DNA of 64,000 nt from Diphasiastrum complanatum (taxonomy: Eukaryota; Streptophyta; Lycopodiopsida; Lycopodiales; Lycopodiaceae), in assembly GCA_029204225.1 (NCBI GenBank), contig CM055092.1, positions 21,727,669-21,791,668 on the forward strand, written 5' to 3'. Made by a program: the position numbers and the translations under genes. Position 1 is the stretch's first letter, and each line of letters opens with the position of its first letter. The notes under the pieces were generated by a model, which saw nothing but the letters and a program-made list of their open reading frames with translations, did no database searches and was not told the DNA's origin. Of this stretch, positions 10,200 to 62,229 are shown piece after piece.

Positions 10200-10207
10200 T
10201 GGATTAA

Positions 10208-11020
10208 CATGATGACAAAAAAAAAGAGAAATGACTAAAGACCCATTTTTTTTTAAGTTTATTAATTTTTTTAAAAAGTTTTCAAATTTAAAATGCTTCA
10301 AATAAATATATTGTAATTTTAAGAAAATGTTGCATTTTGCAAGAAAATAATTTAAGCTACAAAAATTTGGTCAATAGATTTTTATAAATAGCTTAAAATT
10401 AGCTTATATTAAATAATAATACTATTTAAAATAAAATCATTAGATACACAACCACTAAAATACCTAAAAAATATTTTTTGCTTACTAACAACAAAAGTTA
10501 TAGTTTTTTTTTTGGAATTTTAAAAGTTTCCTAGATTACAATTTTTGTATCAAAAAAAATATTTTTTAAATTATGTTACAAATTTGAATCAATATTTTTT
10601 GAAATTTTAAAATTTTGAAAATCTTTACTTACACCCACGTAAGTTTATTAAATATTTAAGCATTAAATAAACGCCAATAAAATTACTTTACAATAGTCGA
10701 GATTAGATTATTTGTGATAATATTTAAAGCAACCTGAAAAAAATCTAATTTTTTTTTCATTCCTTATAATTTTTAACAATACCTTTTTTACAAAAAATAT
10801 TACAAAGACACATCTAAAATTAAAACATTGTAAATTTGACAAATCGTTACAATTTTAATTTTTGGTGATAATTATCAATGTTAAAATTTTTAAAATATTT
10901 CAAATTTTAAATTTTAAATCGTTAAAAAATAAATCTAAAAATATTAAATCAATAAAAAAGAATTCAAAACACAATACATCAAAAATTATAAACACACTTA
11001 TTTTTTAAAACAAAAGAGAA
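10208..11020. other. AT-rich terminal region of the 4.5-kb element
   Basis: About 800 bp is made almost only of A and T runs. I see no ORF, no clear tandem repeat and no LTR signal. It lies downstream of the methyltransferase stop codon, so it may hold the 3' UTR. Confidence 0.6.
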
Positions 11021-11024
11021 TTTT

Positions 11025-14000
11025 TTATTCTAAAAAATCATCGATGTCATTTATATCTTTTTCTTTTGTTTTTTCTTGAGTAGCCACTGTACTATCAATT
11101 GGCACCTCTTCTACAATTTCCTTGACTACAGTTACTACATTATAATCTTGAACCAAGACATCAGCAAATTCTCCTGTGTTGCCTACTTTTCCGCTAGCAG
11201 GAAGCTGAGGTTCCTTGGACAAGGGAATTATTGTATCCTCGCTGTCCAAACTCTTTCTCACCTCAGATAATTCATCTGACAAAATTGAAAGAGATTTCAT
11301 TCTCATTTTTATAAAATCAACTAAATTAGTATCTAAATCTACTATAGCAACATGTCTGCCTTTCTGAATAGCACATGCGCTCGTAGTGCCGCTACCGCTA
11401 AGTAAATCTAAAACCCAATCAGCTAGGTGAGAAAAAATATCAATTAAATGATTGATTAATTGTTGTGGCTTTTTGTAGGGACAAGCCACAGAACCCGTCA
11501 TTGGATTTTTTAATTTCTTTGTCATAGCTGAATACTGGAACAAGTTTCCAAAACTTGTTAGTCCGGAAGTATTGTAATACAGCATCAAACGTTTGTCATC
11601 CAAAGAATAATAACCGATGGTTATGTATTCTATTTCATTGCAAAGTCGAGCTCCTCCCGAATTCCTGACATTGGGCTTGTACTTGACATGGAACATTACA
11701 AGTAAAATAAATTTAAAATTTTAATTTTAAAATAAAAAATTTAAAATAAAACTATAAATTAAAATACGAATTGATAATTCAGAAACTTAAGAACTTACCA
11801 CACATCATTCTCATTCCCGCATTACAGAAAGTTAGTAGAGCTTTATGTACTGATACTGACTGCCAAGAAGAATGAAAAATAACAACTTTCCAAATTGGAG
11901 AAGTTGTGACTTCAAGAAAGCCCTGCATAAAACTATGGATTTTAGTGATTCTGAAAGGAGTATCATCATTTCATCTGAAATCCATATGGTATATCGGCGA
12001 TGCAGAGTGTAGAAGTCCTTCCTCTAAAATTTTTGAAATTTCTCTGCAATCGCCCTCCTCAACAGAGTAAAAACATGGTTGATCATCGACACTTTTGAGA
12101 AGGTAGGTCTCTAATGGATCCTCTTCCGCAATGGTCTCACCCCGTGCCAATCTCTCCTTGTCCCTTTTTTCTGCTTTTGCCTTCAGAATATGTCTCTTGA
12201 ATTGCTCTGGAAGGACTTTGTTTTTTTTTGTCTTCGGGAGACTGAAAAGAAAAAAGCTATGCTTAGCATGGGAGGCAAAACATATAAAATAGAATAGGAG
12301 ACTTAATTTATCAAAAAATAATAATTAAATAAAGAAAAAACTATGCTTAACATAGGAGACATAGAATATAGAAAAGATTCAATTAATAAGCACCTATGCT
12401 AAGCATGGGTGAAATAAATACCATGTCTGAACAAAATAAAAAATGGACGCAGGGCTTAATTTCGGCTGTTCAGAGGATAAAGCCTCTGGCACTCATCGAA
12501 ATCTTGACAATTTAACCCTGTCACAAGGGCTTCTTAAACTTTCTATTTGCCTACATAAAACCAAGAACTTATTTGTTGATATTGTCGTGTTTCTTGGCAA
12601 CAATCTTAACATTTGCAGTGATCAATTCTCAAACTTAGATCATGATCTTGCTCGACTTCGTAGTACTAGATGCTAAAAATTAAGGATGTCATTTTTAAGA
12701 CCCTTCTCTCTCCAAAGAAGCAGATTATAGTGGGACCACTTCTCACTCAACTAGCAATACACCAAGCGGGCGAAGTACTTGACCCTTCAACGGACTTTCC
12801 AACAGAATCTCCCATTGATGCCACGTCTTCTAAGACAAAATCTAAGAAGTCCATGCCAGAAGATAAGGACTGGCAGCAAGCAGTCCAACACTTTTCGGCA
12901 CAAGCAATAGTCCAATCCGCACTGTTGCGCTGGCGCCTCAAAGGGCGCTGAGACTTGCCTGCATTGAAAAAATATAATTGTTAAAAATCCAACCAAATTT
13001 TGAAAATCACTTTATTAAAAAAGGTAACATGAAAATAAATATTTAAATTATGACTATTACCTCTGAAATTCTTTTCCCATTTCTGCTAAGGAAAGTTGAC
13101 CATCGACAACTCTTGAAAGAACACTTATTATTAGCTCTGAAGAGCTAATCCTTTGCATATTCTTCCATTCTGATATTCCCATTTTAGTAGGGATTGGCTT
13201 CAGAGTTTGAGTGCTCAAAAAAAAAAAATTTGGACTTTGAGGCACCTTGAGCAGGTTAGTCTTTTATTTGAAAAGTTTCTCATTTATCAAAAATTTTATC
13301 AACAAGGGCCCACACCTGAAATAAAAAAAAAAAATTTAATTGATAAAGAATTTAACGAATATTAAAATTAAGTTCAAAATTTTAGTCTGATAAAAACAAT
13401 TTAAAAAGATTATAACATATATTATGACCAGAACATTTCATGACCAGCATAGCCAAACAAATTACTTGGCCACTGCGAAAAGCAAGCTGAAAAAAATTAT
13501 CGTATTTTGTAAGGTTCTGCGTAGGATTTTTCGAATCAAAAGACAGGCCTGTCTCTTGAGCACATAGTGCTTTCAGCTCAAGTTGATTCACATTTCCTGC
13601 TTTCGAGACTCTCATGTATTTTTTGGAAAAAAAACGAATTCTTTGTATCACGGTTATCTTCATCCGGTAGTCCTGATCAATATTGTGGTCCCAAGTCAAT
13701 AATTTCGCTTCTTCCATGGAGTAACTATGGCTTGTGTATGATCTTTAAATTTTATTTTTAAATTATCTACATGTGTTTCATTAAGCTCTCTAAGTTCCAT
13801 TGGCCTGTCTCCTGTTATTGGGTCTACAGATGGCCTATCACACTGATTTATGTCTAAAATCAAAGTTGTTTCTTTTATTTTTTTTGTTTTATGGATATCT
13901 TCTCTTAATTTGACAAGTTCAGAGTTGTCTTGTAATGGGCGGATGGATGCACCAAGTAGCGACAAAGATGGTTCGGTGGCGACTTTTTTGCTTTCAGCAG

Positions 14001-14372
14001 AAGGGATGGACTTATGGCGATGTGTAGTCATGGTCTTTGGGCGTGACTTAGGTCTAGTGGGCGAAGTCTCAGAAATATTATGAGATCTTTTTATTTTTCG
14101 GGATGAGGGATAGCTACAGTTTCATCCTCAACATTTTCAGAGGCCGGCTTTGTGACTTGAACAGTGGTAGAAGCGGACTTGCGAGATCCAATAGATACAC
14201 CTTTTGCTCATCATCGACAGAGAAAAGCTGATTTATAAAATTTTTTCTCAACATTAGACGCAGATTCTGAGGAAGACATTCCAGTTGACTCTGATGAAGA
14301 AGACGGGTCTTCCATTTCATCAGCTGAAAACGAGAGTGTTGAGAATATGTCAAGTTTTGAATTGAGAGGCAT
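11025..14372 (-). pseudogene. ParB-like domain plus N4/N6 DNA methyltransferase, intron-bearing
   Basis: The start is probably the ATG at 14372; a Ser/Glu-rich N-terminus and basic linker lead to a ParB/sulfiredoxin-like block (LILDINQCDRPSVDPITGDR ... LNETHVDNLKIKF, about 13880-13740), then LTWDHNIDQDYRMKITVIQR. Exon edges with GT-AG signals are visible: donor after 13466, acceptor before 13315, donor after 13061, acceptor before 12958, acceptor before 12241 (long pyrimidine tract), donor after 11799. Exon 12241-11799 holds a degenerate motif IV (SPIY where DPPY is expected). The last exon has KPQQLINHLI and LDLLSGSGTTSACAIQKGRH, the S-adenosylmethionine-binding motif I of N4/N6 amino-methyltransferases. 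Motif IV before motif I fits the beta class. Stops (e.g. just after MDFR), at least two frameshifts and a truncated ParB fold show it is dead. The frame of 12958-12443 is unclear. Confidence 0.8.
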
Positions 14373-14399
14373 CAGTGAAAATTCCTTAGAAAATGTACT

Positions 14400-14702
14400 T
14401 TAAAAAAAAGAATGTGCAAATATAATTTAAGTTATTTTGTATTTCAATGAGATTTCGAGTTTCAAAAATCATTTGTTCTCTTGAATTATTATTTCATTTG
14501 TAATTATGATGGTTTTATGAAGTTTGCAACAAAAAACTTGTAGTTCTTTTCTTAAAATATGTATTTTTTGGCTTTTTTTTAAAACAAAATTTAGAGATTT
14601 ATTAAAAAAATCCATGATTTTGGCCTAAAACTAGGACCATTAAAAAACACCAAAAAAGATTACTCTTTTTTAGGTCAAAGTCCCAAAACAAATGTCATTG
14701 TG
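14400..14702. other. AT-rich terminal region, upstream side
   Basis: An AT-rich stretch upstream of the methyltransferase start, ending in the right terminus of the insertion. A promoter would be expected here, but I cannot point to a TATA box among the many AT runs. Confidence 0.5.
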
Positions 14703-14710
14703 TTGATTCA

Positions 14711-16236: not shown

Positions 16237-16328
16237 TGTGGTGGCCTAGTCGTTATAGATTTTGACAAAATCAATTAGTTAAGTAGTATAAAAGGTTTGA
16301 TCGTTCCCCAAGAGAGAGATTAATCTCA
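16237..16328 (-). repeat. Stub of the Ty3 5' LTR
   Basis: TGTGGTGGCCTAGTCG at 16237 starts a 92-bp match to the LTRs at 4703 and 7406. It breaks where copia sequence begins, so the rest of the 5' LTR was lost or displaced. Confidence 0.8.
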
Positions 16329-17076
16329 TCTTCTTTTCAATTAGATCCCTGATCAAGTGGTACTTGATCGCAATGTGCTTCGTTCTGGAATGGAACACGA
16401 GATCTTTCGTCAGGTGTATTGCAGAGGTGTTGTCCATCTGCAAGACCAGGGGCTTGTTCCTTGTTTCGTCCAATTTGTCTAGGAATTTTCTTAGCCAGAT
16501 TATTTCGTTGGCCATCTTTGCTACTGCAACATATTCTGCTTCGCAGGATGACTGGGCTACAACGGTCTGCTTCTTGTTGAGCCAGAGAAGTGCTGCTCCT
16601 GATGCGATGGTGCATCCTCCTGAGACGCTTTTACAGTCGTCCTTGAGAGATGTCCGGCTAGCATCGCTGTAGGAAAGTATCCTGAAACCTGCATCACAAC
16701 AATAACACAAGCCATAATCCCTCGTTAATTGAAGATATTGCAAGATGCGTTTTGCAATCTTCCAATGTGTCGAGTCTGGATTCGTGTAGAATTGGCTCAT
16801 TTTGAACACTGTACAAGCAATATCAGGGCATGTGTTGTCTGCAAGGTACATCAGTGATCCTATCAACTTCTTGTAAGGTGTGAGCTACATTTGTTCTCTC
16901 TCTTCCTCAGTATTTGGACAGTCATCGCTTGTCAGCACCATCTCTGCGAGCATTGGAGTGTTCGCTCCTTTGCAATTCAGCATCCCAAAGTCCTCTAGGA
17001 TCTTCTGGATGTATCTGGACTGGTGAAGGTATAACTTACCTCCCTCGTGGTCCCTTTCAATTTGTAAGCCTAGGCA
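16328..17076 (-). pseudogene. Copia element 1, RNase H domain
   Basis: The minus strand reads MIGSLMYLADNTCPDIACTV, then QSSCEAEYVAVAKMANEIIW and KHIAIKYHLIRDLIEKKMR, the connection and RNase H of a Ty1/copia pol. The C-terminal tail is replaced by Ty3 LTR sequence at the 16328 junction. About 70 codons (16866-17077) between it and the RT are out of frame. Confidence 0.85.
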
Positions 17077-17793
17077 CTATATGGCTTCTCCCAAATCCAC
17101 TATGTCGAAATGTTTCAAGATGTCTGCCTTTACTTTAGCAATTAGCTGCTCACTCCTGCAAAGTATCAAAGTGTCGTCCACATATACAGCCGCTATGATG
17201 ATCTGCTCATCTGTAACTCTGACATATACATTAGAATCAGCCAACAGAGGCTTGAATCCTAATGATTTAAGAGCTTGATCTTTCTTCTTGATACTTCTGT
17301 GCATTCTGCATGCATAGTCAGGTAGTGAATTCGAGACATATCTTGGGGGTTGATCCATGTAGACCTCTTCGTCTAATTCGCCATGCAAGAAGGCTGTCTT
17401 CTCGTCCACAATGTGGATCCTGAGGTCATAAGCTGCTGCATATGCAAATAACAGACATAGGGACGAATGTTTGACGACAGGAGAGAAGTTTTCAGAGTAG
17501 TCAATACTATATCTCTGAGAGAAACCTTTCGCTACCAGTCTTGCCTTGTATTTTGTGGTTTTCCCATCTGGTCCGTATTTGAGCTTGAAAACCCATTTGC
17601 ATTTGACAGTCTTGCGCTTATGTGGTAATGGCTCCAATGTCCATACCTGGTTCTTCCTCATGGACTCCAATTTTTTATTCATGGCTTGGATCCATCTGTC
17701 CTTCTCTGGACTATCAATCGCTTCCTCGAAAGTCTGTGGTTCGCCATTGAATCCGCAGAACTCTTCTGATGTGAAAGCTGAGCTGCCTGGCAT
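17077..17793 (-). pseudogene. Copia element 1, reverse transcriptase with internal deletion
   Basis: This 238-codon frame holds WTLEPLPHKRKTVKCKWVFK, KARLVAKGFSQRYSIDYSEN and the catalytic YVDD (AAVYVDDTLILCRS). Compared with the sister copy at 18339-19085 it lacks an in-frame block of about 11 residues, YSLKQSAQQWY, between RMHRSI and KKKDQ. This block is the conserved copia Y[GS]LKQ motif, so the enzyme is probably inactive although the frame is open. Confidence 0.88.
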
Positions 17794-18240
17794 ATATCTT
17801 GCTGGCGCTCTTCGTGGTCTTGTCGACCTTCTGGGAGATCTCCTAGGACAGCTATGCCTTTGCCTTTGTCTGCTCTGCTCGGTCTGGGACCATCTTGGTT
17901 TACAGGAACTACGGCGACAGGTTGCCTCTCAAATCTTTCTTCGTCAGATTCGTCGTTCAAATGGGAGATGACTCGAAAATCTTTGTTTTCATGTTCGTCC
18001 TCTCCTCCCTCTGTCATTGGCAACAGATCATAGTACTATCTCTCCAGAACTTCGTAGCTGACAGGATCGTCATTGGCCATTGTCCGGCTCTCATCGAATC
18101 TGACATCTCTCACTATTTTCACAATGTTCGTGTCTGGCATGTAGACTCTGTAGTATGACGAATTGTTGTCATAACCTACCAGAAATCCCTGCTTGGCTTT
18201 CTCATCAAGCTTCTTTCGAAGCTTATCAAGAATATATGCC
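17679..18240 (-). pseudogene. Copia element 1, integrase C-terminal region
   Basis: The stretch encodes the variable linker between integrase and RT (acidic region ending with GEDEHENKDF, then an SRADKGKGIA-like part). It is nearly the same as 19006-19500. Only the last integrase residues remain before the break at about 18240. Confidence 0.75.
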
Positions 18241-18385
18241 TATTATCCTTATTAATTACTTTGGAGGGCCTAAAGAGGGAACCGCCTTGTTCTTAAGGCT
18301 AATAGCTCCTTTTGGGCCTACAAAGCTTACAATGGATATTATATTGCCTTGAAAAGCACTGATGTACTAAAAGTACATGACACTG
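18241..18385. other. Spacer between the two copia halves
   Basis: About 145 bp unrelated to either copia half, with a 'tactaaaagtacatgaca' stretch at the right end. It may be filler DNA from break repair. Confidence 0.45.
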
Positions 18386-19085
18386 TCTTTACTTCAGCAA
18401 TTAGTTGTTCACTCCTACAAAGTATCAGAGTGTCGTCCACATAAACAGCCACTATGATGATCTGCCCATCTGTAACTCTGACATACACATTGGAGTCAGC
18501 CAAAAGAGGCTTGAATCCCAATGATTTCAGGGCCTGATCCTTCTTCTTGTACCATTGTTGGGCTGATTGCTTCAGACTGTAGATGCTTCTATGCATTCTG
18601 CATACATAGTCAGGAAGTGGATTCGAGACAAATCTTGGGGGTTGATCCATGTAGACCTCTTTGTCTAATTCGTCATGCAAGAAGGCTGTCTTCTCGTCCA
18701 CAATGTGGATCCTAAGGTCATAAGCTGCTGCATATGCAAACAACAGACGTAGGGATGAATGTTTGATGACAAGAGAGAAGCTTTTAGAGTAGTCAATACT
18801 GTATCTCTGAGAGAAACCCTTCACTACCAGTCTTGCCTTGTATTTCGTCACACTCCCATCTGGTCCATATTTGAGTTTGAAAATCCATTTGCATTTGACA
18901 GTCTTGCGCTTATGAGGTAATGGCTCCAACGTCCATACCTGGTTCTTTCTCATGGACTCCATCTCTTCGTTCATGGCTTGGATCCATTTGTCCTTTTCTA
19001 GACCTTCAATTGCCTCCTTGAATGTCTGTGGTTTGCCATTGAACCCGCAGAATTCTTCTGATGTGGAAGCTGAGCTGCCTGGCAC
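18386..19085 (-). pseudogene. Copia element 2, reverse transcriptase (truncated)
   Basis: Contains the copia RT blocks KCKWIFKLKYGPDG, RMHRSIYSLKQSAQQWYKKK and VAVYVDDTLILCRS. The frame is lost about 25 codons after YVDD at the junction with the 18241-18385 spacer. This is the better-preserved of the two RT copies, but it has no RNase H. Confidence 0.88.
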
Positions 19086-19265
19086 AAATCTTGTTGGTGC
19101 TCTTTGTGGTCTTGTCGACCTTCTGGGAGATCCTCCTGGAATAGCTATGCCTTTGCCCTTGTCTGCTCTGCTCGGTCCGGAACCATCTTGGTTTACAAGA
19201 ACTGCGGCAGCAGGTTGCCTCTCGAATCTTTCTTCGTCTGATTTGTCGCTCGAATGAACGACGAC

Positions 19266-20723
19266 TCAAAAATCTTTGTTTTCGTGTTCATCCTCTGCTC
19301 CCTCTGACGTTGGCGGCAGGTCATAGTACTGTCTTTTCATAACTTCATAGCTAACAAGGTCTTCATTGGCCATTGTCATGCTCTCATCGAATTTGACATC
19401 CCTCACTGTTTCCACAATGTTCGTATCTGGCATGTAGATTCTGTAGTATGACGAATTATTGTCATAACCTACCTGAAATCCTTGCTTGGATTTCTCATCA
19501 AGCTTTTTGCAAAGCTTATCAAGAATATGTGCATATATTGCACGGCCAAATATTCTGACATGAGACATGTTGGGTTTTCTACCCCACCATAGCTCATGTG
19601 GTGTCATGTGAGGAACACCAGATTTACTTGCCCTGTTTTGGATGTATGCGGCTATAGCTACTGCTTCAGCCCACAGTGCCCTTGGAGCCTTCGAGTATGC
19701 CATCATGCATCTGGCTGCTTCCATCAGGGTCCTGTTCTTTTGTTCAGCAACACCATTGTGCTGCGGTGTGTAGGCTGCAGTTCTTCTATGAATGATGTCA
19801 TGATCATTGCAGAAGTCAGTGAAGCGATTCAAGATGTATTTGCCACCTCAATCTGTTTTGATCTGCTTCACTTTGCTGCGCGTACATCTCTCAGTCCAAT
19901 TCACATATTTTGTGAATTTATCAAGTGCTTCAGATTTATTCTGAAGAAAATACACTCTGACAAATTTGCTATAATCATCGATGAAGGTTATATAATATTT
20001 TGAACCTCCTACTGAGATCACGTTGAATGGTCCACAGATGTCAGAATGTACTAGCTCCAGAATCTTAGTCGTTCTGTAGGAGTCTTTGACGAATGGTGTC
20101 CGTGACATCTTTCCCTTCAAACATGCATCACAGGTGGTCGAACTGGTTGCATTCAAGATGCTAACCCCTGTTATTGCTCCAAGATGGCTTGCTTGGTAAA
20201 GTGTCATTGAGTTCATATGGTAGAGTCTCCTGTGCCACAAAGTGTTTGGCTGGTCATCGTGAGTCTGATGCACTTGATCTACAGGTAGGCGTACCTTCAA
20301 ATGATACAAGTTTCTTTTCCTTCTGCCTTGAGCGATCAAAATACTGGTACTAGCATCAATCACATTGCATGCTTCATCAGAAAACATCACACGCATCCCT
20401 GCATCTGCTATTCTTGCTACAGAGAGCAAGTCTTGTTCCAGTGTAGGCACGAACAGAACATCTTCGAGTTGTCTGTCTCTGCCGTTGGTATTGAGCCATA
20501 GTGAACCAATACCGTTCACTTGATGTCTAGATCCATCTCCAAGAACTATGAATCTTGAGGGATCTGCACTTCTGAAATCAAACATTATTCGTCTTGATGT
20601 CACGAAGTGTGAGGTGGCTCCTGAGTCTAGAATCACCTCATGTGTGTCAGATGTTGATGCTACACACACGTCTTCATAGATATAGGCGGTCGAACAATTT
20701 CTGTTCGTTTTTTCTTCGCCCAT
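19266..20723 (-). pseudogene. Copia element 2, protease and integrase
   Basis: 20723-19848 carries the protease motif DSGATSHFV near the N-terminus, the GAG-pre-integrase H-H-C-C finger (LWHRRLYHMNS ... CDACLKGK) and the integrase core from HSDICGPF and FIDDYSKFVRVYF. One stop or frameshift near 19840 separates it from 19832-19266, which holds the last acidic residue of the DDE triad in TPQHNGVAEQKNRTLMEAAR and the C-terminal WWGRKP block. Both parts are in the order usual for Ty1/copia, so the copy is young but disabled. Confidence 0.9.
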
Positions 20724-20804
20724 TTTTGAGCTCTCAGGCTCCTCAACATAGGATAAACTATTGCTGTTCTCCTGTCTGTTCTATGCTGATTTGTTTCTCG
20801 GGTT

Positions 20805-31479: not shown

Positions 31480-32584
31480 GTGTCTCAGAGGAGACAGGCC
31501 ACCGTTGGATGCTCTGAGAACCACAGATTTTGCCACGTTGTGATAGGCTGGGCATACGCGTGGCAGATTTGACTGGTGGCTAGCATCCAAGTGTGCCGGG
31601 ATGCAATGTGTAAGTGGCCCTGAGGCTTTTGATTCTCCGTCTTTAGAGGTGGGTCTCGCTGTTTGTATCTTTCTCTCTGGAAAAACAAGCGACTTCAAAA
31701 ATGAAGAAAACGTGAAAGCTGGCTGGTGTGCTTAATTAGTTAAGAGACACGCCATAGCCAAAGCTTTCTATCGTTCGCCACGCGTTTTCTCCTCACCTCA
31801 GCAGCATCCCTGTATCCTGCTCAAACCTCTTGCTTCATGTACTATTTATTATATACTTATATTATTATTTCCAGTTGTAGATTCCTATTGTGGATTGATT
31901 AATGTTTCCGTTTTCGTAGGTGGAGAATGGGACTTGCTTTTAGATCCAATCATCCATCCTTTCTCTTCTTTTCTTTTCTTTTCTTGGTCTGAGATTTGCT
32001 TACTCCGGGAATTTGTGAAGGAAGCAGTTAGCATACAGTTTTTTTATTAATGTATGCGGCTTTTGTTTTGCCTCTTCGCCGGATAGCTTCGTAAATTTGA
32101 TGAGTTATTCACTAGATTCTGTTTGTGGAACTGATGTTTTTCAAGAAGTGAGGACCTGTGATTCCTTATATAATGGGTTGATGTGGCAGAGTAGCTTTAC
32201 CTTATGTTCTTGCCACAGGCTCTAACGCAAAAGCTTTAACATAAGTTTTAGTAATAACCTTATTTTGCGAATAGTTCGACAACACTGCAATAACTGCAGG
32301 TGATTTCAGTCAGTCATTAATTGCAGTAGGTTGGATGACCAAGGACAAGGTTGGAATGGAAGTTGCTTATGCACATTTTTTATGTTTTTTTTTGAAGAAA
32401 AAGTGAAGCCAAGGCGATGGAGCTTCTCATCTTCTCAATAGCAATAAGAGTTTGATCAAATTTTATGATTAGATTGTATCATGAGGTGAAACGAAGCTGT
32501 GAAATCTCCATTTAGGAAAACGGATGTTGCTTAAAGACGCTTCGGATGAAAGTGAAGTAGTGAAACACATAGGCATAGGTTGTA
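31480..32584 (+). promoter_or_regulatory. Upstream region of the FAF-domain gene
   Basis: The stretch holds a 'tcttcttttcttttcttttctt' pyrimidine tract at about 31970-31985, a typical plant 5' UTR feature. There may be a UTR intron ending before 'gttgtaatgg' at 32580. A TATA box cannot be fixed; 'attatatacttat' at 31847 is one candidate. Confidence 0.4.
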
Positions 32585-33922
32585 ATGGAAAGTTTGCCGA
32601 AAGGGAGAGATTCTTCTAAAGAAGAGTCTAGAAGGAGGCCGTCTTTGAAGGAATCATGGAGTCCTACTCTCGCTGATCCTGTGTTCGGAGAGACAGGAAT
32701 TGGCTATGGTGAAAGAATAGCATGGGAGGTGCTTTCACCAAGACAATCTGAAACTCCTTCCAGCCGGGAATTTGAAGATGTTTGGAGTAACGTAGGACAA
32801 AGGAACCATGGTAGCCCTCTCTACGCTTCCGTTTGGCATTTAGAAGACGAAACAGATTACAGTTGGAGGGAAAATCGGTATGGTTCTCGCATGGATCCCT
32901 TTGACGAAGAGCAGTACATAAAAAGAGGATGCAACAACGGTTTCAATTGTTCTGAAATAAGAGGAACTGATGAAGACCTCGAGAGTGAAAGGAGAGAATC
33001 TGATGCTGAAATTTCACAAAGCCAGGGAAATGTTGAGCAGCGTGATATGGGACGAGAAATTAGTGAGAAAGAAATGCATAGTGTGAGAAAGGTCAGGGCA
33101 TTTCCTCCTCTTCTTACTTCTCTTCCAAATAAGAGCTTCACATCATTCTCTCATCTTATGCCACCGGTGCTCCTAAAGCCTTTGAGAAGCAAGGGTCGTC
33201 TTGTTCTTCAGGAGGCAAAGGTTGTAGGTACCGCTATGTTCCAGCCTGTTCGCAGAGATGGGAGATTGTTGTTGCAACTTCCGAGGCAGGATGATGACCA
33301 ATACCTGGCAATGAACGAGGAAATCGAAGAAGCACACATGGAACGAGAAGAAATAGCTACAGAAAAGCCTATGTTTGAAGCCACAGGTACTTTAGAAAAT
33401 CAGGAGACCCTTGGAAAACCTTCAAACGACGTCCAAGAGATGGGACAAGGTATATCGCAGTCAAATTCTGGTTCAATGGAATTGAATCAATGTTGTGCTG
33501 TTTTATATAAGCAATCAGGAGAGGTATCGCATCAATTGGTCTCTCATTCCGAAGATGTTAAGGCTGGGTTTGACAGGCAGCATAATGATGAAATTCGCAC
33601 CAAATTTGTTATTGAAAACGACGCGGAAAGGTGCTCAACGAATACAGAAGCCTGGGATTCGGCTCTCCCTGAAAGTGTAATGAAAAATAGCAAAGGAGTT
33701 ATCTGGACTAAAGCTTGTGGTGATGTAGTAAAACAAGATGTGCAAACCCTTGCATTTACAAATTCAGATCTGGCTGGTCCAGTTAATCTGACGAAATCTG
33801 CCTTTGAAGGTTATGTACTCTTGCAATTTCACCCAGTAATTCTCGTCTCTACAATTTCATTACGTTACCTCCGTGAATGGATTGGAATCTTTTCAAGCAA
33901 AACGGAGAGCATTGGAATGTGA
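32585..33922 (+). CDS. FAF-domain (FANTASTIC FOUR-like) protein
   Basis: An intact 445-codon frame from ATG at 32585. Residues about 172-238 hold the FAF domain: FPPLLTSLPN, then VLLKPLRSKGRLVLQEAKVV and VRRDGRLLLQLPRQDDD, the arrangement of plant FAF proteins. The rest is hydrophilic and acidic, as in that family. FAF proteins in Arabidopsis modulate shoot meristem size; in this organism the role is unknown. The last 30 codons (LLQFHPVILVSTISLRY) are hydrophobic and unlike the rest. A GT at about 33809 (AFEG|gttatg) could be a splice donor, with an acceptor at 35047-35048, so the true C-terminus may differ. It is the best intact gene here and is not part of a retroelement. Confidence 0.85.
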   Translation: MESLPKGRDSSKEESRRRPSLKESWSPTLADPVFGETGIGYGERIAWEVLSPRQSETPSSREFEDVWSNVGQRNHGSPLYASVWHLEDETDYSWRENRYGSRMDPFDEEQYIKRGCNNGFNCSEIRGTDEDLESERRESDAEISQSQGNVEQRDMGREISEKEMHSVRKVRAFPPLLTSLPNKSFTSFSHLMPPVLLKPLRSKGRLVLQEAKVVGTAMFQPVRRDGRLLLQLPRQDDDQYLAMNEEIEEAHMEREEIATEKPMFEATGTLENQETLGKPSNDVQEMGQGISQSNSGSMELNQCCAVLYKQSGEVSHQLVSHSEDVKAGFDRQHNDEIRTKFVIENDAERCSTNTEAWDSALPESVMKNSKGVIWTKACGDVVKQDVQTLAFTNSDLAGPVNLTKSAFEGYVLLQFHPVILVSTISLRYLREWIGIFSSKTESIGM

Positions 33923-52356: not shown

Positions 52357-54087
52357 GTGTTATGTCCATGTCTTGTATAAGGAAATCCGAATAATTCCTG
52401 ACGTGGATAGCCGGTCACTCCAATTGTATGTGGTTATTAGTTATGGTACCTCATTCCGGGCGTGGTCGTTACAAGTAATTAATAATCATATGAGGGCCCA
52501 AACCTATAATTGGACATAGGAGCATTTGCATGGTGAATGATTGCTTTAATGCAAGAATAGGAGGTCAATAGCTTAAATTAGCCTGCATGGGGAACCTAAG
52601 GGAAATATTTTCTCCTCTTGGAGAGAATACTTACCATGGAAACTCGCCCATTTTTGTATTGGAATTTCAGATTCTTGAGCCAAGTTCTCCTCTTTTCTCT
52701 TGTATTCATTCTCTATGGCTTGGGGGTGAAGGGTTAGAGTATTGACTAGCCTCTTCATGTTGGTTGGGTGGTTAATGCTCCAGAAGCATCCTTTTGGTTT
52801 GTGTAGCGTAGGCATCCCAAAGGGAGCCGGGAACCACGACTTAGCTTCCCAGCCTTCAACTTTTGCCATCCAAACCCACTTGACATACAAGCAGCCAACT
52901 CGCCAACAACGATCAGACTTAACCAACTTGAAGTTCCGAAAACCAACATTGAGCTCCAACCTGGCGCCATGCCAGATCGGGGGTCCCGATGTGGGTGACT
53001 TCCCTCCAAGCAAGCCGCCCGACATACATCAAACTTAACCAACTCGAAGCTTCGTTACAAACGAGTAACATCCATTCCAAGCAAGCGGTCTGACTTACAT
53101 CAGACTTAACCAACTGAAAGCTTCGTCACGAGCGCTGGAAGCCAACCTGGCGCCACGCCAGACTGGACAGCCATAAACAAGTAACTTCCACCCAAGCAAG
53201 CCATCCAACTCAGTCGACAGGTTAGAGCCCGTTCCCCAAGAGCTTAACCCATTCACGTTCATGCAAGGAACACTCAGAACCACAAGCTGCGACAGATATG
53301 GAAACAACCAGTTCATGGACCAAATGGTCCCGACAGCATACCACTGGCGCCACGGACCGAATGGTCCCGACGGCATACCACTGGCGTCCCGGGATACGAC
53401 CCTCAGCTATGTGCCAAGTTAAAAATTTGGAAGCGGCCTTACAACTGGCGCTTTTACCGAACACTGAAACCCAGAAAGTAATCAGAGTCAGCTTGAGGAA
53501 AATCCCATTTTATTGATAAATCTGAGAAGGTTGCATTTCAAGTGTGTGACCGACCCTAGTCTCCGGGGCGCTAGCATGTCAAGGCGAGAGCCATGACAAC
53601 ATTCCAGCAAGGGAGGCTGAGACTTGGTTGGAGCTCGCCCTGAGTCGCAACCCGCACTCCCCTATAGTATTGGTGTGATTCGGCACCCCCCCTCATACCA
53701 AGCACTCTACCCAAGCTGGTAAAGCACATTTTTCTCTCTCTAGGATTTTCTCTTTCTAGAAAGTCATTTTCTCTCTCTAGATTTTACTGATCCCCAGGCT
53801 TCCTTTAATCATGCGTAGATCGTGTGAGGTGATTGCACATCGATCCGAGCTCTCTGGACTCCGCTAGAACCGATCAAAGATTTTCAGCCATAGGAACTTG
53901 GCGTCGGCTGGATTCTGGTCACAGTGGCGCCGGGAGCAGCAGGGGCGCCGGGGACATAGCTGGCGCCGATGGCGCCGGAAGTAAAGCTTGTAAATGTAGC
54001 TTTACAACAGTTTGCATGTGACAGGATTCTTGAAGATCTTCACTTGGTGATTGTTATAGTTGTATCAGAGCTTGGCGATTGTTATAG
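52357..54087 (+). repeat. LTR of a plus-strand element, split by a solo LTR
   Basis: Begins TGTTATGTCCATG like 43255. LTR sequence runs to 52801, is interrupted by a solo LTR of another family (52802-54009), and resumes at 54010 to the PBS at 54088. Confidence 0.75.
52802..54009 (-). mobile_element. Solo LTR of the GC-rich family, GTTTG target duplication
   Basis: Plus strand from TGTAGCGTAGG to TTTACAACA, 1208 bp, flanked by GTTTG at 52797-52801 and 54010-54014. It matches 58994-60184 in inverse orientation and 62230-63447 in the same orientation. It is GC-richer than its surroundings, with many 'ggcgcc' motifs. Confidence 0.92.
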
Positions 54088-54103
54088 TGGTATCAGAGCT
54101 TGG
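54049..54103 (+). other. Duplicated primer-binding site
   Basis: A 28-bp unit 'gattgttatagt[tg]gtatcagagcttgg' is present twice (54049-54076, 54077-54103). The second copy has the canonical TGGTATCAGAGC; the first has TTGTATCAGAGC. Confidence 0.88.
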
Positions 54104-55121
54104 ATCACATTAACCAGAAGGTGGGGCTTGAGGATCTTGGATTTTTGCGGTTCTTTTGGTGCATCTCTTTGCTTATTTTTTCAGGTGGTGGAATTCATTT
54201 CCAAGTAGGTGGCTTCTCAGATCCTTGGTGTACTTTCAGCCTAATGATCATAATTGTGGATTTGCTCCATGATTTTTTATGGAAATCATAGGATTTTTTA
54301 TGGAAGTTAGTGAATTTTTCACCTAGAATTCATGTTTTTTGCTTGGAATTGATCATAGGTTCTGATGTAGTACGTTTTTCAGATTGTCCTTGCTGTTTTA
54401 CAATCATTATCGATTGGATCTAATGATTGCATGATGTATGAATAGTCATTTTTTTTATTTTGGACCAAAATTTGGGGGTTTTTGGACTAGAAATGGGATA
54501 TAGAATCCATATTTGACTAAAATTAGAACTTTTAGTGCTTGCATGTAATGGATTTACAGGGATTAGGATCAGATTGCACTTATTTGTGGATTTATCCCAC
54601 AAATTTTGGTCAAAATTGGTCACGTGCTCAAGGGTGTAATGAAGCTTTCCTAAGACTGTCATTAAGTTTGGTAAGGATTGGACACCATTAGGGGGCTCAA
54701 AACATCAAAAAACAATGTATTTTTGGTGATTTTTGGGCATACCAGTAACTAGATGAACAGTTACTTTGGCCTTCTATTTTTGGTATTATTCTTCGCCGAC
54801 CTGGCAGTAGATAAGATCTGAATCACACCTATGCATAGTGAATAAGGCAAAGGTTTTTTTCTGTATTTTTAAGAGTTTTGATGGTTCTATGTAGTTATTC
54901 TAATATTTTTGCAAATCTGCTAGGAATAAATCTTCGTCGTATTTACATTTAAATAATGTAACCAATGTTTTCATGAGAGAGAAGGCTATTAGAATGGTTC
55001 CAAAGGCACCCCTTCCCCTGTGCTACGAACATTTATAGACATAGTCATCTATTGTGAATGTGTCAAGTAAATCTCCATCTACAATAAATGCCCTAAGAAT
55101 TTTTTTGTTTTGGGAGGGGGG
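54104..55121 (+). mobile_element. Internal start of the plus-strand non-coding LTR element
   Basis: No frame of interest; similar in kind to 43790-44350. It is interrupted at 55122 by the next insertion. Confidence 0.5.
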
Positions 55122-55126
55122 AAAGG

Positions 55127-55935
55127 TGTTGTAAAGCTACCTTTACAAGCTTTACTTCCGGCGCCAGCTATGTCCCCGGCGCCATCAGCACCCCTCCTGC
55201 TCCCGGCGCCACTGTGACCAGAATCCAGCCAGCGCCAAGTTCCTATGGCTGAAAATCTTTGATCGGTTCTAGCGGAGTCCAAAGAGCTCAGGTCGATGTG
55301 CAATTATCTCACACGATCTAGGCATGATTAAAGGAAGCCTGGGGATCAATAAAATCTAGAGAGAGAAAATGACTTTCTAGAAAGAAAAAATCCTAGAGAG
55401 ATAAAAATGTGCTTTACCAGCTTGGGTAGAGTGCTTGGTATGAGGGGGGGTGTCGAATCACACCAATACTATAGGGGAGTGTGGGTTGCGACTCAGCGCG
55501 AGCTCCAACCAAGTCTCAGCCTCCCTGGCTGGAATGTTGTCATGGCTCTCGCCTTGGCATGCTAGCGCCCCGGAGACTAGGGTCGGTTACACACTTGAAA
55601 TGTAACCTTCTCAGATTTATCAATAAAGTGGGATTTTCCTCAAACTAACTCTGATTACCTTTTGGGTTTCAGTGTTCGGTAAAAGCGCCAGTTGTAAGGC
55701 CGCTTTCGAAATTTTTAACTTGGCACATAGCTGAGGGTCGTATCCCGGGACGCCAGCGGTATGCCGTTGGGACCATTCGGTCCGTGGCGCCAGCGGTATG
55801 CTGTCGGGACCATTTGGTCCAGGAACTGGTTGTTTCCATATCTGTCGCGGCTTGTGGTTCTGAGCGTTCCTTGCATGAACGTGAATGGGTTAAGCTCTCG
55901 TGAATCCCGGCTCCCTTTGGGATGCCTGCGCTACA
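55127..55935 (+). repeat. 5' LTR of the non-autonomous element (shortened)
   Basis: From TGTTGTAAAGC to CTGCGCTACA, 809 bp. Compared with the 1191-bp copy at 58994-60184 it lacks about 400 bp between 'gttaagctct' and 'cggctccctttggg'. Confidence 0.88.
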
Positions 55936-55937
55936 TG

Positions 55938-55950
55938 TGGTATCAGAGCC
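55938..55950 (+). other. Primer-binding site, initiator tRNA-Met type
   Basis: TGGTATCAGAGCC two bases after the LTR end. Confidence 0.92.
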
Positions 55951-56016
55951 GACTGGCCGGTCAGCTATGCGGATCTCACGGAAATGGCCACGGTTTGGGG
56001 TTCATCAAGACAACTG

Positions 56017-56800
56017 TTGTGCAAGGTGCTGCCCACAGTGTAAGCACGGGTGCGTCCACGGTCGGGGTGGTTGGCAGGACGGGGGCTTGATGAGTCTAAG
56101 TGCTGCCCTTGAGGTGTAAGCACGGTCAGTTTCCGCGGTTCGGGCCTGGCGCCGTCTGCACGTTGGACAGATGAGGCAATGTGCTGCCATTAGGTTGGTG
56201 TAAGCACGGTCTGTGCCTTGTGGGGTGCGGGGTGACATATTCACGATAGCCACCGTTCGTTTAGCTATTGGTGGGGGCGTTACTGAGGCAATGTGCTGCC
56301 TAACGGTGAAAGCACAGGTGCGTCCACGATTTGGGTGGTATGCTGCCGATTGTTTAGCTATAAGGCCCATCAACTAAATTTGGTGGGGGCGTTACTAAGG
56401 CAATGTGCTGCCTAACGGTGAAAGCATGGGTGCATCCACAGGGGTGGTATATTCAAGAATAGCTGCCATTCGTTTAGCTATTAGGGCTATCGACCAAATT
56501 TGGTGGGGGCGTTACTGAGGCAATGTGCTGCCTAACGGTGAAAGCAAGGGTGCGTCCACGATTGGGGGGTATGCTGCCGTTCGTTTAGCTATAAGGGCTA
56601 TCGACTAGATTTGGTGGGGGTGTTACTGAGGCAATGTGCTGTTTAACGGTGAAAGCACGGGTGCGTCCACAGGGGTGGTATATTCAAGGATAGTTGCCGA
56701 TCATTTAGCTATAAGGGCTATTGACCAAAAAGTGATGGGGCGTGACTGAGGCAATGTGTTGCTTAATGGTGAAAGCACGGATAGTTGGAGGGGTGTCCTA
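56017..56800. repeat. Tandem array in the internal region
   Basis: Units around 'gaggcaatgtgctgcctaac' and 'ggtgaaagcacgggtgcgtc' recur at about 56283, 56397, 56517, 56630 and 56746, period about 115-120 bp. Three more degenerate units lie at about 56017, 56097 and 56171. Confidence 0.88.
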
Positions 56801-58613
56801 TGGGGGCTGATTCTGTGATCGATTTGTATGGGCGTGGCTAGGCAAAGGTCCGTTGGCAGGACCATCTCAAAGGGGGACCTTGTCTTTGTTACTTGTTAGT
56901 AAACCTGCCTGAGTGTCTTACTTGTATGTATTCGTGGTGAGTCTTAGTACTCGTGCTTTGCCTGGTTTGCATGATTGCTTGTGATACAAGGAGCTGATGG
57001 CTCGAGAAAGAACCTTTCTTTTGAAGGCTGATACCATCAAACAAAGAGGACTACTGAATCTGTGGGGCGGATTTGCAGTTCAAGTACTCGCACGTGAACG
57101 GCAACGAAACGACTCAATGTTTGCAAAGGATGGATGGCTAACATGTTTCTTGGGTTAGTTTCATTTGCAACAATGCCCACCAGACGCAAGCATGAAGTCA
57201 AAAGTTGGAAAGGGCAATTTCAAGGGAGATCTTCTATGGAGCAGTTGGTCTTCATTTTGGGACGACCACCTTCGGAACTTAAACTCACTGAGCATGGGTG
57301 ATATCCAGTATCAGTTGGGTTTTTCCTCAAAGGGGAAAGACTAGGATCCTCTTCAAAGATTGGCAACAAGTTGGATCGAGCCATAATCCTAGCAGATGGA
57401 AAGCAAAGTGTTGGAAAGGCTTTATGTCCGAAGAACTCTACTCTAAGTCCGATCAGCTGATTTTATAAGTGGAGGGGAACTATCACACACACCTCTCTGT
57501 TGGGGTAAATTTTGAATGAAAGTTGATCAAAACGGGGGCAAATTCAAGGTGACCTAGCCATACTCACACGAGGAGACTGGCGAACTTTGGACCTAATAAG
57601 TTGACAAGTTTTTGTTGTGGAAAGGAAAGCTTGTTATAGGCTTTCTCCAGACCAGCAATGATGAGGAAACATATGAGTACGCTGGCTTGTGTTACGTGTA
57701 AGGGAGCTGATCAATGAAGGAAATATGAAAGTTGAGTCTTGCATGAGAGACTTGGTATTTCGAACGGACGCTAAGGGATAGTTCGCGTTGAGATCGGACT
57801 AGTGCAAACTCTGGGTGCATGTGTCTGATTCAAAGAGAGCTACTGGAAGCCAAGCTCGATGTACACTTCTTGTTTTGACCGTGAGGCAACTGACCAGTGA
57901 TGGAATTGTGAAAGTCAAGTTTTGCGCGACGGACATGGTGCTTCAAACAAACGCGAAGAGATAGTTCGGATGCGGATCAAACTGGTGCGACCCTTTGGCT
58001 TTCCACGAGGTCAATGGCTACATTTGGGCTGATTCAAAGAGCTACTTCAAGCTAAGTGAGAGGTGCATTGCGCAGTACTCAATCTTTGCATACCTTAAAG
58101 AGCCAAGATGGAAAAGTATCAAGATCAGGCTGGGACAAGGAGGAAAATCAAGGTGCAGAAGCAACAAGGCACGGAGTGGACCATAAAGTGGGCAATCAAA
58201 CGATGAATCCTTTGGCTCAGGGAGCCTTTATACTTGTAAATCTGGAGCTCAAAGAGCTCAACACAAAGTGCATCAAGGACAAACCAGGCGCTCAAAGGAG
58301 TTCTAAAGTCGAAAGTCAAAAGCGACAGGGGCGAACATTTCAAAGAAAGGCATCTGTCACCAGTTAATAAGGTTCTTGGGTTTTACGAAAGCGATATCAA
58401 ATCTACGCTTTTCCCAGACAAAGATATATTTTCGAGTTATGTAATTTTTCAGTACAAAGAGCTGAGCCTCCGACTTGTGGTTTGCCAGCTTCAAAGTTAA
58501 TAAAAGTTGGCCAGTAAATTGAGTACTGTGCCAAGTAGCTTAAATGTATAGCTATTTTAATTTGGAGACACCTTTCCTTTAATCTGACATCTGATGAGGA
58601 CATCAGATTTTAT
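56800..58613 (+). mobile_element. Non-coding internal region
   Basis: No gag or pol domain on either strand. The right part (about 58080-58613) is repeated inverted at 63462-64000, which supports it being part of the element. Confidence 0.7.
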
Positions 58614-58627
58614 AAAGGTGGGGTTAA
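58614..58627 (+). other. Polypurine tract
   Basis: AAAGGTGGGGTTAA directly before the LTR start TGTTGTAAAG. The same tract occurs inverted at 63448-63461. Confidence 0.8.
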
Positions 58628-58993
58628 TGTTGTAAAGCTACCTTTAGAAGCTTTACTTTCGGCGCCACTGGCGCCAGCTATGTCCCCGGCGCCAGCAGCG
58701 CCCCTGCTGCTCCCGGCACCACTCCCGACGCCACTGTGATCAGAATCCAGCCAGCGCCAAGTTTTTATGGCTGAAAATCTTTGGTCGGTTCTAGCGTAGT
58801 CCAGAGAGCTCAGATCGATGTGCAATCACCTCACACGATCTAGGCATGATTAAAGGAAGCCTGGGGATCAATAAAACCTAGAGAGAGAAAATGACTTTCT
58901 AAAAAAGGAAAATCCTAGAGAGAGAAAAACGTGCTTTACCAGCTTGGGTAGAGTGCTTGGTATGAGGGGGGGGGCAAATCACACCAATACTAT
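58628..58993 (+). repeat. Truncated LTR copy
   Basis: Starts TGTTGTAAAGC but stops at 'caccaatactat', where a second LTR start follows. Confidence 0.85.
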
Positions 58994-60184
58994 TGCTGTA
59001 AAGCTACCTTTACAAGCTTTACTTTCGGCGCCATCGGCGCCAGCTATGTCCCCGGCGCCACTGTGACCAGAATCCAGTCGGCGGCAAGTTCCTATGGCTG
59101 AAAATCTTTGATCGGTTCTAGCGAAGTCCAGAGAGCTCAGATCGATGTGCAATCACCTCACACGATCTAGGCATGATTAAAGGAAGCCTGGGGATCAATA
59201 AAATCTAGAGAGAGAAAATGACTTTCTAGAAAGAGAAAATCCTAGAGAGAAAAAAACGTGCTTTACCAGCTTTGATAGAGTGCTTGGTATGAGGGGGGTG
59301 CCGAATCACACCAATACTATAGGGGAGTGCGGGTTGCGACTCAGGGCGAGCTCCAACCAAGTCTCAGCCTCCCTTGCTGGAATGTTGTCATGGCTCTCGC
59401 CTTGGCATGCTAGCGCCCTGGAGACTAGGGTCGGTTACACACTTGAAATGTAACTTTCTCAGATTTATCAATAAATTGGGATTTTTCTCAAGCTGACTCT
59501 GATTACCTTCTGGGTTTCAGTGTTCGGTAAAAGCGCCAGTTGTAAGGCCGCTTTCAAAATTTTTAACTTGGCACATAGCTGAGGGTCGTATCCCGGGACG
59601 CCAGCGGTATGCCGTCGGGACCATTCGGTCCGTGGCGCCAGCGGTATGCTGTCGGGACCATTTGGTCCAGGAACTGGTTGTTTCCATATCTGTCGCGGGT
59701 TGTGGTTCTGAGTGTTCCTTGCATGAACGTGAATGGGTTAAGCTCTTGGGGAACTGGCTCTAACCTGTCGGCTGAGTTGGATGGCTTGCTTGGGTGGATG
59801 TTACCTGTTTATGGCTGTCCAGTTTGGCGTGGCGCCAGGTTGGCTTCCAGCGCTCGTGACAAAGCTTTCAGTTGGTTAAGTCTGATATAAGTCAGACCGC
59901 TTGCTTGGAATGGATGTTACTCGTTTGTAACGAAGCTTCGAGTTGGTTAAGTTTGATGTATGTCGGGCGGCTTGCTTGGAGAGGGGTCGCCCACATCGGG
60001 ACCTCCGATCTGGCATGGCGCCAAGTTGGATCTCAATGTTGGTTTTCGAAACTTCAAGTTGGTTAAGTCTGATCGTTGTTGGCGAGTTGGCTGCTTGTAT
60101 GTCAAGTGGGTTTTGGATGGCAAGAGTTGAAGGCTGGGAAGCTAAGTCGTGGTTCTCGGCTCCCTTTGGGATGCCTGCGCTACA
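58994..60184 (+). repeat. 3' LTR, full-length
   Basis: TGCTGTAAAGC to CTGCGCTACA, 1191 bp. The segment 59755-60150, absent from the 5' LTR, contains three or four units built around 'agttggttaagtctgat'. Confidence 0.88.
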
Positions 60185-60189
60185 AAAGG

Positions 60190-61284
60190 TCACCCTTCGA
60201 GGCCTTTCTGTCGGCCGAGGTGAAAAACCCTTCTCACGGTCGAACGCCCGAGAGGTAAACCTTTCTGAACGTGAAAATTTATTTTAACTTTTTTTTGTCG
60301 TAATTTCTTTTACATGTATCTTTCACATGTACAAAAATTTGAAAAAGAAAAGGGAGTCACATAGATTCCGCTTTGGGAGAAGACTCCTTTATCTTCATGA
60401 AAAAGAAAAAATTGATTTTTGCATCATGTTAATAGGTGACCAAGCCGAAGTTAGAGTGCAAGGAAAGTAGATTAATAATACGCTCAACATACCCTTCTGG
60501 TATCAGTTCACCAGATTAAAAATCCTCAAATATCACAATGCTTGGCAGTGTTAGACATTTGGCGAAATGTAGGGTTGACAAAGCAAAAGACGTCTCCTTG
60601 CTTGCATACCCCTCTTGAAACCCTATTCCGTTTGTGAATGCCTACAAAGTTGCAGTTAAGAGTCAAAAAACTTTTGCATATCGGCATTCAAGTCAGGGAT
60701 GCCTATTTCTGTTCTTATGACAGGAAAAGGAGAGATTTACACTAAGTAAATTCATTTGAGCTCAAACTATGCAGTGCAAAGAGAAAACATGCAAATCAAA
60801 TAGCACTTATACTGCTATAGAATGAAGCGGTTCAGAGCAAGTGCATTTCAATTTCTGAATCTGAACAGTCATGTGTAACAAGTCCATATTCATGGATATG
60901 TATTCTGAGTTTCAAGGACTTTAGTTCTAACCAGTATCACATCAGAACAGTGATTAATGTCTAACTTGGTCCAAGAGAGAGATATCCACCACTCCAATCA
61001 AGGATCACTGTAACACTATACTGATCAGCCATCCACCTGAGCAATCCAGTGATACCTAGCATGTACTGAACACTCTCATTTTACTTGACTCAAATCGGAA
61101 ATTTCAGCTTACACATCTTCTATGCACCGTGTTTCTTTGATTTCCTCCAACAGAATCAAACCTTAGAGGCAGATTGCTAGGCAGGACATTTCAAGTACAG
61201 GAAAGCAGTGAGTATTGCATCTGGTCCAAAAGTATGAACACAGATTTCATCGATCACTAGAGAGAGTAGATTGTATCAAGAGGC
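60190..61284. other. Intergenic stretch, 3' flank of the membrane-protein gene
   Basis: No ORF or repeat recognised. It may include the 3' UTR of the minus-strand gene at 61285. Confidence 0.45.
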
Positions 61285-61948: not shown

Positions 61949-62186
61949 TGCAATTGGGTTGCGGAGAAATGAAATGCGTATTAGAGAGGTTTTTAGATTC
62001 TGTCAAATGCCTGTGGCAATCCCATTTCCAGGGAAGATTGCAGCTTCCATCCTTCAATAAAACTCGAATACTGCATTTGATCATGACCACGATTCTCCAA
62101 TCAGCAGATTCAGCACAGACAGCCTACTTGCTCGCTCATCCTTAGGAGCTTTGATGGTTTATAATCAAAGCTCTAAGTGGTGAGCT

Positions 62187-62229
62187 GGTGAGATTGGTTG
62201 GAGCTCGCCCTGAGTCGCAACCCACACTC
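62187..62229 (-). repeat. LTR fragment beside the full LTR
   Basis: 'gagattggttggagctcgcc' to 'caacccacactc' matches an inner piece of the neighbouring LTR (63048-63092). Confidence 0.85.

Follow-up and report, generated by a model that had tools for sequence, protein, structure and literature searches.

The window examined here, a stretch of 64,000 nucleotides from the clubmoss Diphasiastrum complanatum (assembly GCA_029204225.1, contig CM055092.1, positions 21,727,669 to 21,791,668 of the forward strand), contains at positions 10206..14704 (minus strand) an internally deleted element of 4,499 bp, which almost certainly belongs to a high-copy family of Sola-like DNA transposons, of which it is a decayed and non-autonomous member. 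Longer members of this family measure about 9 kb and combine short terminal inverted repeats (TIRs) and 4-bp duplications with two divergently oriented genes, which are, as judged from their sequences, a DUF7869 transposase gene and a split gene that joins a ParB/Srx-like part to a beta-class N6/N4 amino-methyltransferase. In our opinion, the whole is probably explained by a high-copy plant transposon of Sola-like type, in which the DUF7869 transposase is accompanied by a ParB-like/N6-N4 methyltransferase working on the DNA of the element. A preliminary description of the stretch had already placed a ParB-methyltransferase gene on mobile DNA, and this carrier can now be named as a DNA transposon of Sola-like type, the transposase of which contains DUF7869; the interval it had given, 11025..14372, proved to be short at both ends, and the part at 14239-14403 is an opposite-strand remnant of the transposase gene and does not belong to the methyltransferase gene.

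The bounds of the element came from a comparison of the window with the surroundings of other copies (eight stretches of 10 kb, and three upstream extensions), and the exact ends from TIRs and target site duplications (TSDs); a scan of short shared words for TIRs and TSDs had found nothing, and the ends emerged from the comparison of copies. Relative to the methyltransferase gene, the 5' TIR (AACACAATGAC; 14694..14704, minus strand) recurs with the same 11 bases in copy L048 and with one difference in copy L049, and the 3' TIR (reverse complement AACATGATGAC; 10206..10216, minus strand) is identical to the 5' repeat at 9 of 11 positions. The TSD AATC lies on both sides (left copy 14705..14708, right copy 10202..10205). 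The target of the insertion was the gag gene of a gypsy element, and excising the element together with one AATC restores a continuous gag frame that reads ...DVDSYLS*FESITIANKEHTDEDK..., the stop being that of gag itself. Among the four copies examined at both ends, three show 4-bp TSDs (AATC in the window, TTCC in L048 and CCTT in L049), while the fourth, L047, is without the 5' terminus. The termini of L048 and L049 are those of the window copy, and the distance between the ends is 8.8 kb in the former and 9.25 kb in the latter. Downstream of the last exon, the 3' terminus is found with at most one mismatch at 24 of 30 loci (the window locus and near-duplicates included), the chance expectation being about 0.012 per locus at equal base frequencies.

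On the strand opposite to the methyltransferase, L047 and L049 have a DUF7869 gene (E 8.4e-49 and 2.4e-45, respectively), and transposase sequence was seen in four of the eight copies fetched at length (L043, L047, L048 and L049), the stretches of some others being perhaps too short. From its place in the element, DUF7869 would be the transposase domain; no mention of it was found in the literature searched. We assign the element to a Sola-like family because the 4-bp duplications, the short TIRs and the two-gene layout agree with it. The C-terminal transposase part of L047 (28-930, minus strand) weakly matches a DNMT1 chain over residues 154-238 (E 0.65), which may be a chromatin-reader-like fold or chance. 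Furthermore, a stretch of 0.5-0.8 kb between the two genes is inverted in L044 relative to L045, L047, L048 and L049, and imperfect palindromes occur in the intergenic stretch of L045, L047 and L049, possibly as an invertible or foldback segment.

The bacterial-type N4/N6 methyltransferase of the preliminary description was borne out by profile searches. The minus-strand open reading frame (ORF) at 11025-11720 (231 residues) matches the Pfam family N6_N4_Mtase (PF01555) with E 1.2e-10 and 42.1 bits (curated cut-off 26.7), the solved RsrI methylase with E 2.8e-5 and PHROG DNA methyltransferases with a best E of 4.8e-10, and none of 400 Markov-1 sequences of equal composition contained an open frame of its length (longest simulated frame 222 residues). 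By these sequence matches, the ORF is a genuine amino-methyltransferase fragment. The Pfam match belongs to the last exon (11025..11687, minus strand), which is open up to its own stop codon and holds motif I, LLSGSGTT, where it had been read at first (11405-11382, minus strand). Phage methyltransferases are 24-32% identical over portions of this exon (20 listed of 138), and a scan of viral_contigs with it gave two contigs at 35% over 57 residues. When the methyltransferase part (residues 452-600) was used in a protein search, three of 355 scored proteins matched, namely P0001 and two bacterial-type methylases (E 0.045 and 0.6). P0001 is the D. complanatum gene model O6H91_Y145100, which resembles a potassium channel and of which the final 35 residues match the last methyltransferase exon with 28 identities; it looks as though the annotated last exon of this gene stems from an element copy within or beside it. 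At 52590-52724, the window has a second methyltransferase-like match (tblastn E 0.005), which showed no motif on reading and was judged to be chance.

In beta-class amino-methyltransferases, motif IV, (D/N/S)-(P/I)-P-(Y/F/W), precedes motif I in the sequence. The N-terminal methyltransferase exon (11800..12240, minus strand) contains frame changes and one stop, and the SPIY which had been taken for motif IV is a frameshifted reading: one frame over, the DNA at 11995-11984 gives IADIPYGF. Copies L045 and L049 keep a single open frame through GDCREIS (DDCREIS in L049), ADIPYG and TSPIWRVVIFH, and DNA encoding DIPY is present in eight of the nine copies compared, the window copy included and L050 being the one without it. 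L049 has the order DIPY, then GSGTT, whereas in the window copy the frame is broken. As the match of the joined L049 exons to N6_N4_Mtase (E 1.5e-12) covers only profile positions 79-217 and stops short of motif IV, the latter was assigned by position. According to PMC8885841, DPPY is characteristic of bacterial N6-adenine enzymes and SPPY of N4-cytosine enzymes. The S-P-P-Y motif is not what the open-frame copies L045 and L049 read, and since DIPY begins with an aspartate, and is in this respect closer to DPPY than to SPPY, N6-adenine is the more likely target of the putative enzyme than N4-cytosine.

The ParB-like block is present as well, as had been proposed, albeit in a truncated form that lacks 191 bp. 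What the window retains is the N-terminal half of a ParB/Srx-like domain (TTLILDINQCDRPSVDP...AIVTPW; 13714..13869, minus strand), which aligns with the copies L047 and L049 and with eight proteins from ENA contigs (P0004-P0011). These relatives were obtained among 1,504 proteins scored at E <= 10 when the joined read-through, limited to residues 80-345, served as the query; their identity is 34-41%, their E values range from 3.7e-36 to 4.8e-32, and they fall in two groups; an earlier search with residues 75-600 had returned one match (P0001) among 7,994 scored. The eight proteins still have the stretch that the window copy has lost, in which VIGGSHSAEARRQL (P0007 having T instead of A) precedes EEAKLLAWDHNNDNDYRQK. 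The ordered ParB motifs, including y-x-(I/V)-x-G-G-x-(H/R), read YVIGGSHSAEARRQL in the relatives and YVLGGIHSLQVRKQL in L047, L049 has GN for GG, and the window copy has lost this part. In an hhalign comparison with a ParB profile, the relatives scored 25.5 (E 0.0017) over 103 columns in the expected register, a score which none of 200 column-shuffled controls reached (maximum 23.5), while scores of 12-15, like those of ordinary shuffles, were obtained for the profile in reverse and for two further parts of the alignment. With L047 and L049 added, the score was 25.9 (E 0.0011) over 75 columns, and again none of 200 shuffles attained it (maximum 20.8). We assign the domain as ParB/Srx-like with moderate confidence on the strength of this sequence comparison, and the assignment is strengthened because the same fusion has been reported independently (PMC12477816). 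A scan of viral_contigs with the ParB alignment confirmed no relative among 200 pattern matches and lends no support to a viral origin, a phage search with a ParB relative returned only six records with E 4 or worse, and by BLASTP the upstream exon of L047 (4307-4645) shows no homology to the N-termini of the relatives.

The GT-AG exons of the preliminary description hold in so far as GT-AG stretches alternate with coding blocks on the minus strand of the window copy and the first gap recurs elsewhere; the introns themselves are predictions. Downstream of the ParB domain, a helical block beginning EEAKLLTWDHN (13466..13714, minus strand) is followed by predicted intron 1 (150 bp, GT...AG; 13316..13465, minus strand). 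Copies L045, L046, L048 and L049 have a similar gap there, 146-149 bp in length, whereas the eight ENA relatives read through its position (13465-13316) unbroken. The next coding block, VWALVDKIF...SLAEMGKEFQR (13060..13315, minus strand), contains internal stops and a frame change and ends at a GTAA donor. The ORFs of seven of the eight relatives stop at the residue of this donor, P0006 continuing for 17 residues, which fits a common intron position. The following intron holds 412 bp of extra sequence (12544..12955) that is absent from copies L044-L049, includes most of a plus-strand ORF at 12670-12951 and has AGGCA at both ends. The probable last intron (11688..11799, minus strand) has the donor GGTAAGT, although its splice phase apparently no longer fits in the window copy. 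A chance pairing of unrelated ParB and methyltransferase pieces can be ruled out by the seven of eight frames that end at the GTAA donor, and also by the joint occurrence of the ParB block and the methyltransferase exons in L044, L045, L047, L048 and L049.

Further copies in the same genome, for which the preliminary description had recommended a search, are many. In the assembly searched (1.7447 Gb, 5,176 contigs; window at G000:C1:21727669-21791668; contigs of known size among C1-C23 measuring 42-102 Mb), all 150 scored of 3,456 candidates matched the last exon at 69-100% identity, covering all of C1-C23 plus 28 rows on smaller contigs, some of which have equal scores and are perhaps duplicates. 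With the ParB exon of L047, 120 matches came from 115 scored of 3,172 candidates; both counts (150 and 120) are lower bounds. At 30 last-exon loci, the window's own included, motif I is intact as GSGTT in 16, and 10 list no internal stop.

How an intact member might profit from such a gene can be imagined as follows. The ParB-like part would gather the protein on DNA; its methyltransferase, which by motif IV (DIPY) is likelier an N6-adenine enzyme, would mark the element, and the mark would be of benefit to the element either by countering host silencing or by tagging the ends for the transposase. That intact members methylate their own DNA, or did so in the past, has in our estimation about an even chance of being correct. 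One could further speculate that a land-plant family grew to well over 100 copies with a ParB-guided adenine methyltransferase of its own, whose non-plant mark would evade or override host silencing by 5-methylcytosine (5mC) and act as a self-written epigenetic shield, but this far-reaching version is doubtful.

Several findings weigh against the explanation as a whole or against parts of it. Membership in Sola is putative, being judged from ends and layout. The Pfam methyltransferase match does not span motif IV, neither in the window copy nor in L049, and motif I is altered at 14 of the 30 loci (e.g., SDSDTT, GNSTM). The latter two findings would also suit a protein that is a working accessory acting on RNA, or a DNA-binding scaffold, and in which the methyltransferase fold no longer methylates DNA; a nicking activity has been reported for the B. 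cereus ParB-methylase (PMC5512222), which points in the same direction. However, the DNA encoding DIPY persists in all but one of the nine copies and GSGTT at more than half of the loci, and the best relatives of solved structure, MboIIA, RsrI and CcrM among them, are enzymes that methylate DNA. We hence regard a role on RNA or as a mere scaffold as unlikely.

In addition, the last exon shows no trace of purifying selection when 26 non-redundant copies are compared (four near-identical rows of the 30 dropped; median pairwise difference 7.9%). The nonsynonymous-to-synonymous ratio per opportunity was 0.88 for transitions and 1.36 for transversions among singletons, and 1.28 and 0.77, respectively, among shared changes, and stop variants numbered 8 singleton and 9 shared. 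The lack of constraint and the altered motif I together imply that the sampled copies have mostly evolved as dead DNA, although the sample is biased since its copies are the best matches to the window. Conservation relative to the ENA proteins may point to an older constraint. The same two observations would be expected if a host ParB-methyltransferase gene had been captured by the transposon in the manner of Pack-type elements and were carried as functionless cargo, and plant Pack-MULEs are indeed known to capture genes (PMC12477816). Yet a brown alga has the same two-domain protein in a Sola1 element, encoded opposite the transposase (PMC12477816), and it is improbable that so rare a fusion was captured twice without relation. 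The last-exon matches listed, moreover, grade from 69 to 100% identity, with no search aimed at a separate host gene. Capture as cargo is in our opinion quite unlikely.

The remaining counterevidence concerns the ParB-like domain. The window piece (13696-14121) is matched by none of the ParB families of Pfam, PHROGs and NCBIfam, and the curated profile PF02195 matches neither the window nor the eight relatives nor the whole genome. The relatives gave no ParB match in PHROGs (two searched), and in Pfam only sub-cut-off matches to DUF6551 (E 0.025-0.039 in four of the eight) together with two weaker matches for P0006. A profile of nine phage ParB domains recognised the eight relatives with E 0.02-0.12 only, in a search of those eight sequences. 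The HH-suite probabilities of the comparisons described above are low (15.6%, and 20.8% with the two copies added), and the AlphaFold models are poor, with a predicted local distance difference test score (pLDDT) of 56 and 40, a fold search with the latter matching nothing. If the block were an unrelated domain, and the methyltransferase alone of bacterial type, then such missing matches and profile E values of just about 1e-3 are what one would expect to see. On the other hand, the alignment follows the ParB elements in their expected register, no shuffle equalled it in either test, the reversed profile and the two other alignment parts behaved like shuffles, and the pairing of ParB and methyltransferase in a Sola1 element was reported independently (PMC12477816). 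An unrelated domain is accordingly very improbable.

Lastly, bacterial or viral contamination of the assembly, which the bacterial type of the domains might suggest and which, in its bacterial form, the preliminary description had named as a ground for refutation, can practically be dismissed, as the window lies 21.7 Mb into a contig of 101.6 Mb, a target duplication marks the junctions of the element with the gypsy gag gene that surrounds it, intron-like gaps are common to the copies, the genome contains at least 150 matches including some on all of C1-C23, and a plant FAF gene stands in the same window.

The window copy itself is dead, as had been recognised, having lost the transposase gene, the ParB core and the frame. 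At the junction 14206..14207 (minus strand), blastn blocks show that 4.6-4.9 kb are missing relative to L047, L048 and L049, so that the methyltransferase gene has lost its start and the transposase gene the greater part of its length. What remains of the transposase is its C-terminal end (14239..14403, plus strand), a peptide nearly identical to the end of a minus-strand ORF of L048 and collinear in the comparison of copies. A second junction at 13716..13718 (minus strand), found by copy comparison and protein alignment, marks the loss of the 191 bp relative to L047 and L049, which takes out the GG-x-H motif of ParB and shifts the frame. Further lesions are the stops and the frame change in 13315-13060 and the frame changes and the stop in 12240-11800, whereas the last exon is open.

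Elsewhere in the window, a 447-residue frame at 32579-33922 (plus strand) contains the domain of the Fantastic Four (FAF) meristem regulators (E 6.4e-12), a plant gene amid transposons. Pieces of a Copia-type polymerase lie at 16279-20780 (minus strand) with two RVT_2 blocks (17077-17928 and 18339-19265), and the DNA of 17124-18243 is 86% like that of 18383-19536, which suggests a duplication or two nested elements. Several direct and inverted copies of a repeat of 0.8-1.2 kb, about 88-96% alike, occupy 52799-64000.

If the reading of a Sola-like transposon with a ParB-methyltransferase working on its own DNA is confirmed, a land plant would have a system of DNA methylation that is encoded by a transposon. 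A high-copy family of a vascular plant with many copies and exact ends offers a practical place to seek the mark, and a possible countering of 5mC silencing by amino-methylation could be examined there. No report of a transposon-borne ParB-methyltransferase in lycophytes was found in the literature searched, most subscription papers being outside its scope.

Compared with known systems, several partial counterparts can be named. The N4-methylcytosine (4mC) methyltransferase of Marchantia bears the name DN4MT1. Like the clubmoss gene, it is a land-plant amino-methyltransferase that derives from bacteria, but it acts genome-wide in spermiogenesis, is without extra terminal domains, and no transposon is mentioned with it in the available part of PMC8885841. 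The N4CMT of bdelloid rotifers, as described there, is likewise a bacterial-type amino-methyltransferase in a eukaryote that is tied to transposons; however, it is a host gene fused to a chromodomain, has SPPY, and its 4mC silences transposons, whereas the clubmoss gene is borne by the element, is fused to a ParB-like part and has DIPY (PMC8885841). The B. cereus ParB-methylase and the fusions of bacteria and phages unite a ParB domain with an adenine methylase, as the clubmoss gene seems to do, but are prokaryotic (PMC5512222). With respect to the transposon, Sola2 has 4-bp TSDs, and the Sola2-Fanzor elements resemble the clubmoss family in that they have TSDs of this length, combine them with short TIRs and carry an accessory gene; there, the accessory gene is Fanzor, the TIRs measure 12-21 bp and the TSDs are AT-rich (PMC3627910), as opposed to a ParB-methyltransferase and 11-bp TIRs here.

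The nearest counterparts are found in algae. Among the findings cited in PMC12477816 are giant EnSpm elements of red algae that contain accessory genes, and transposons of green and red algae with ParB-methyltransferases (Iyer 2011; Petroll 2025); the latter proteins, as cited there, have the same two domains as the clubmoss family in other hosts. The fusion itself has already been published, for the brown alga Ectocarpus, and as far as the literature searched shows, the novelty of the clubmoss family lies in its high copy number in a vascular plant. In Sola1-1_Ec32 of Ectocarpus, a gene for a ParB-like domain and an N4/N6 methyltransferase stands opposite the transposase, and it was proposed that its protein binds and modifies the transposon's own sequence (PMC12477816), an idea for which no test in algal elements was found in the literature searched. 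Compared by description, the algal element and the clubmoss family are alike in being Sola-type and in carrying the ParB-methyltransferase gene on the strand opposite to the transposase, whereas the former measures 21.5 kb and encodes a protein of 1,104 residues in a brown alga (PMC12477816), and the latter measures about 9 kb, has a split gene and is represented by at least 150 matches in the clubmoss genome.

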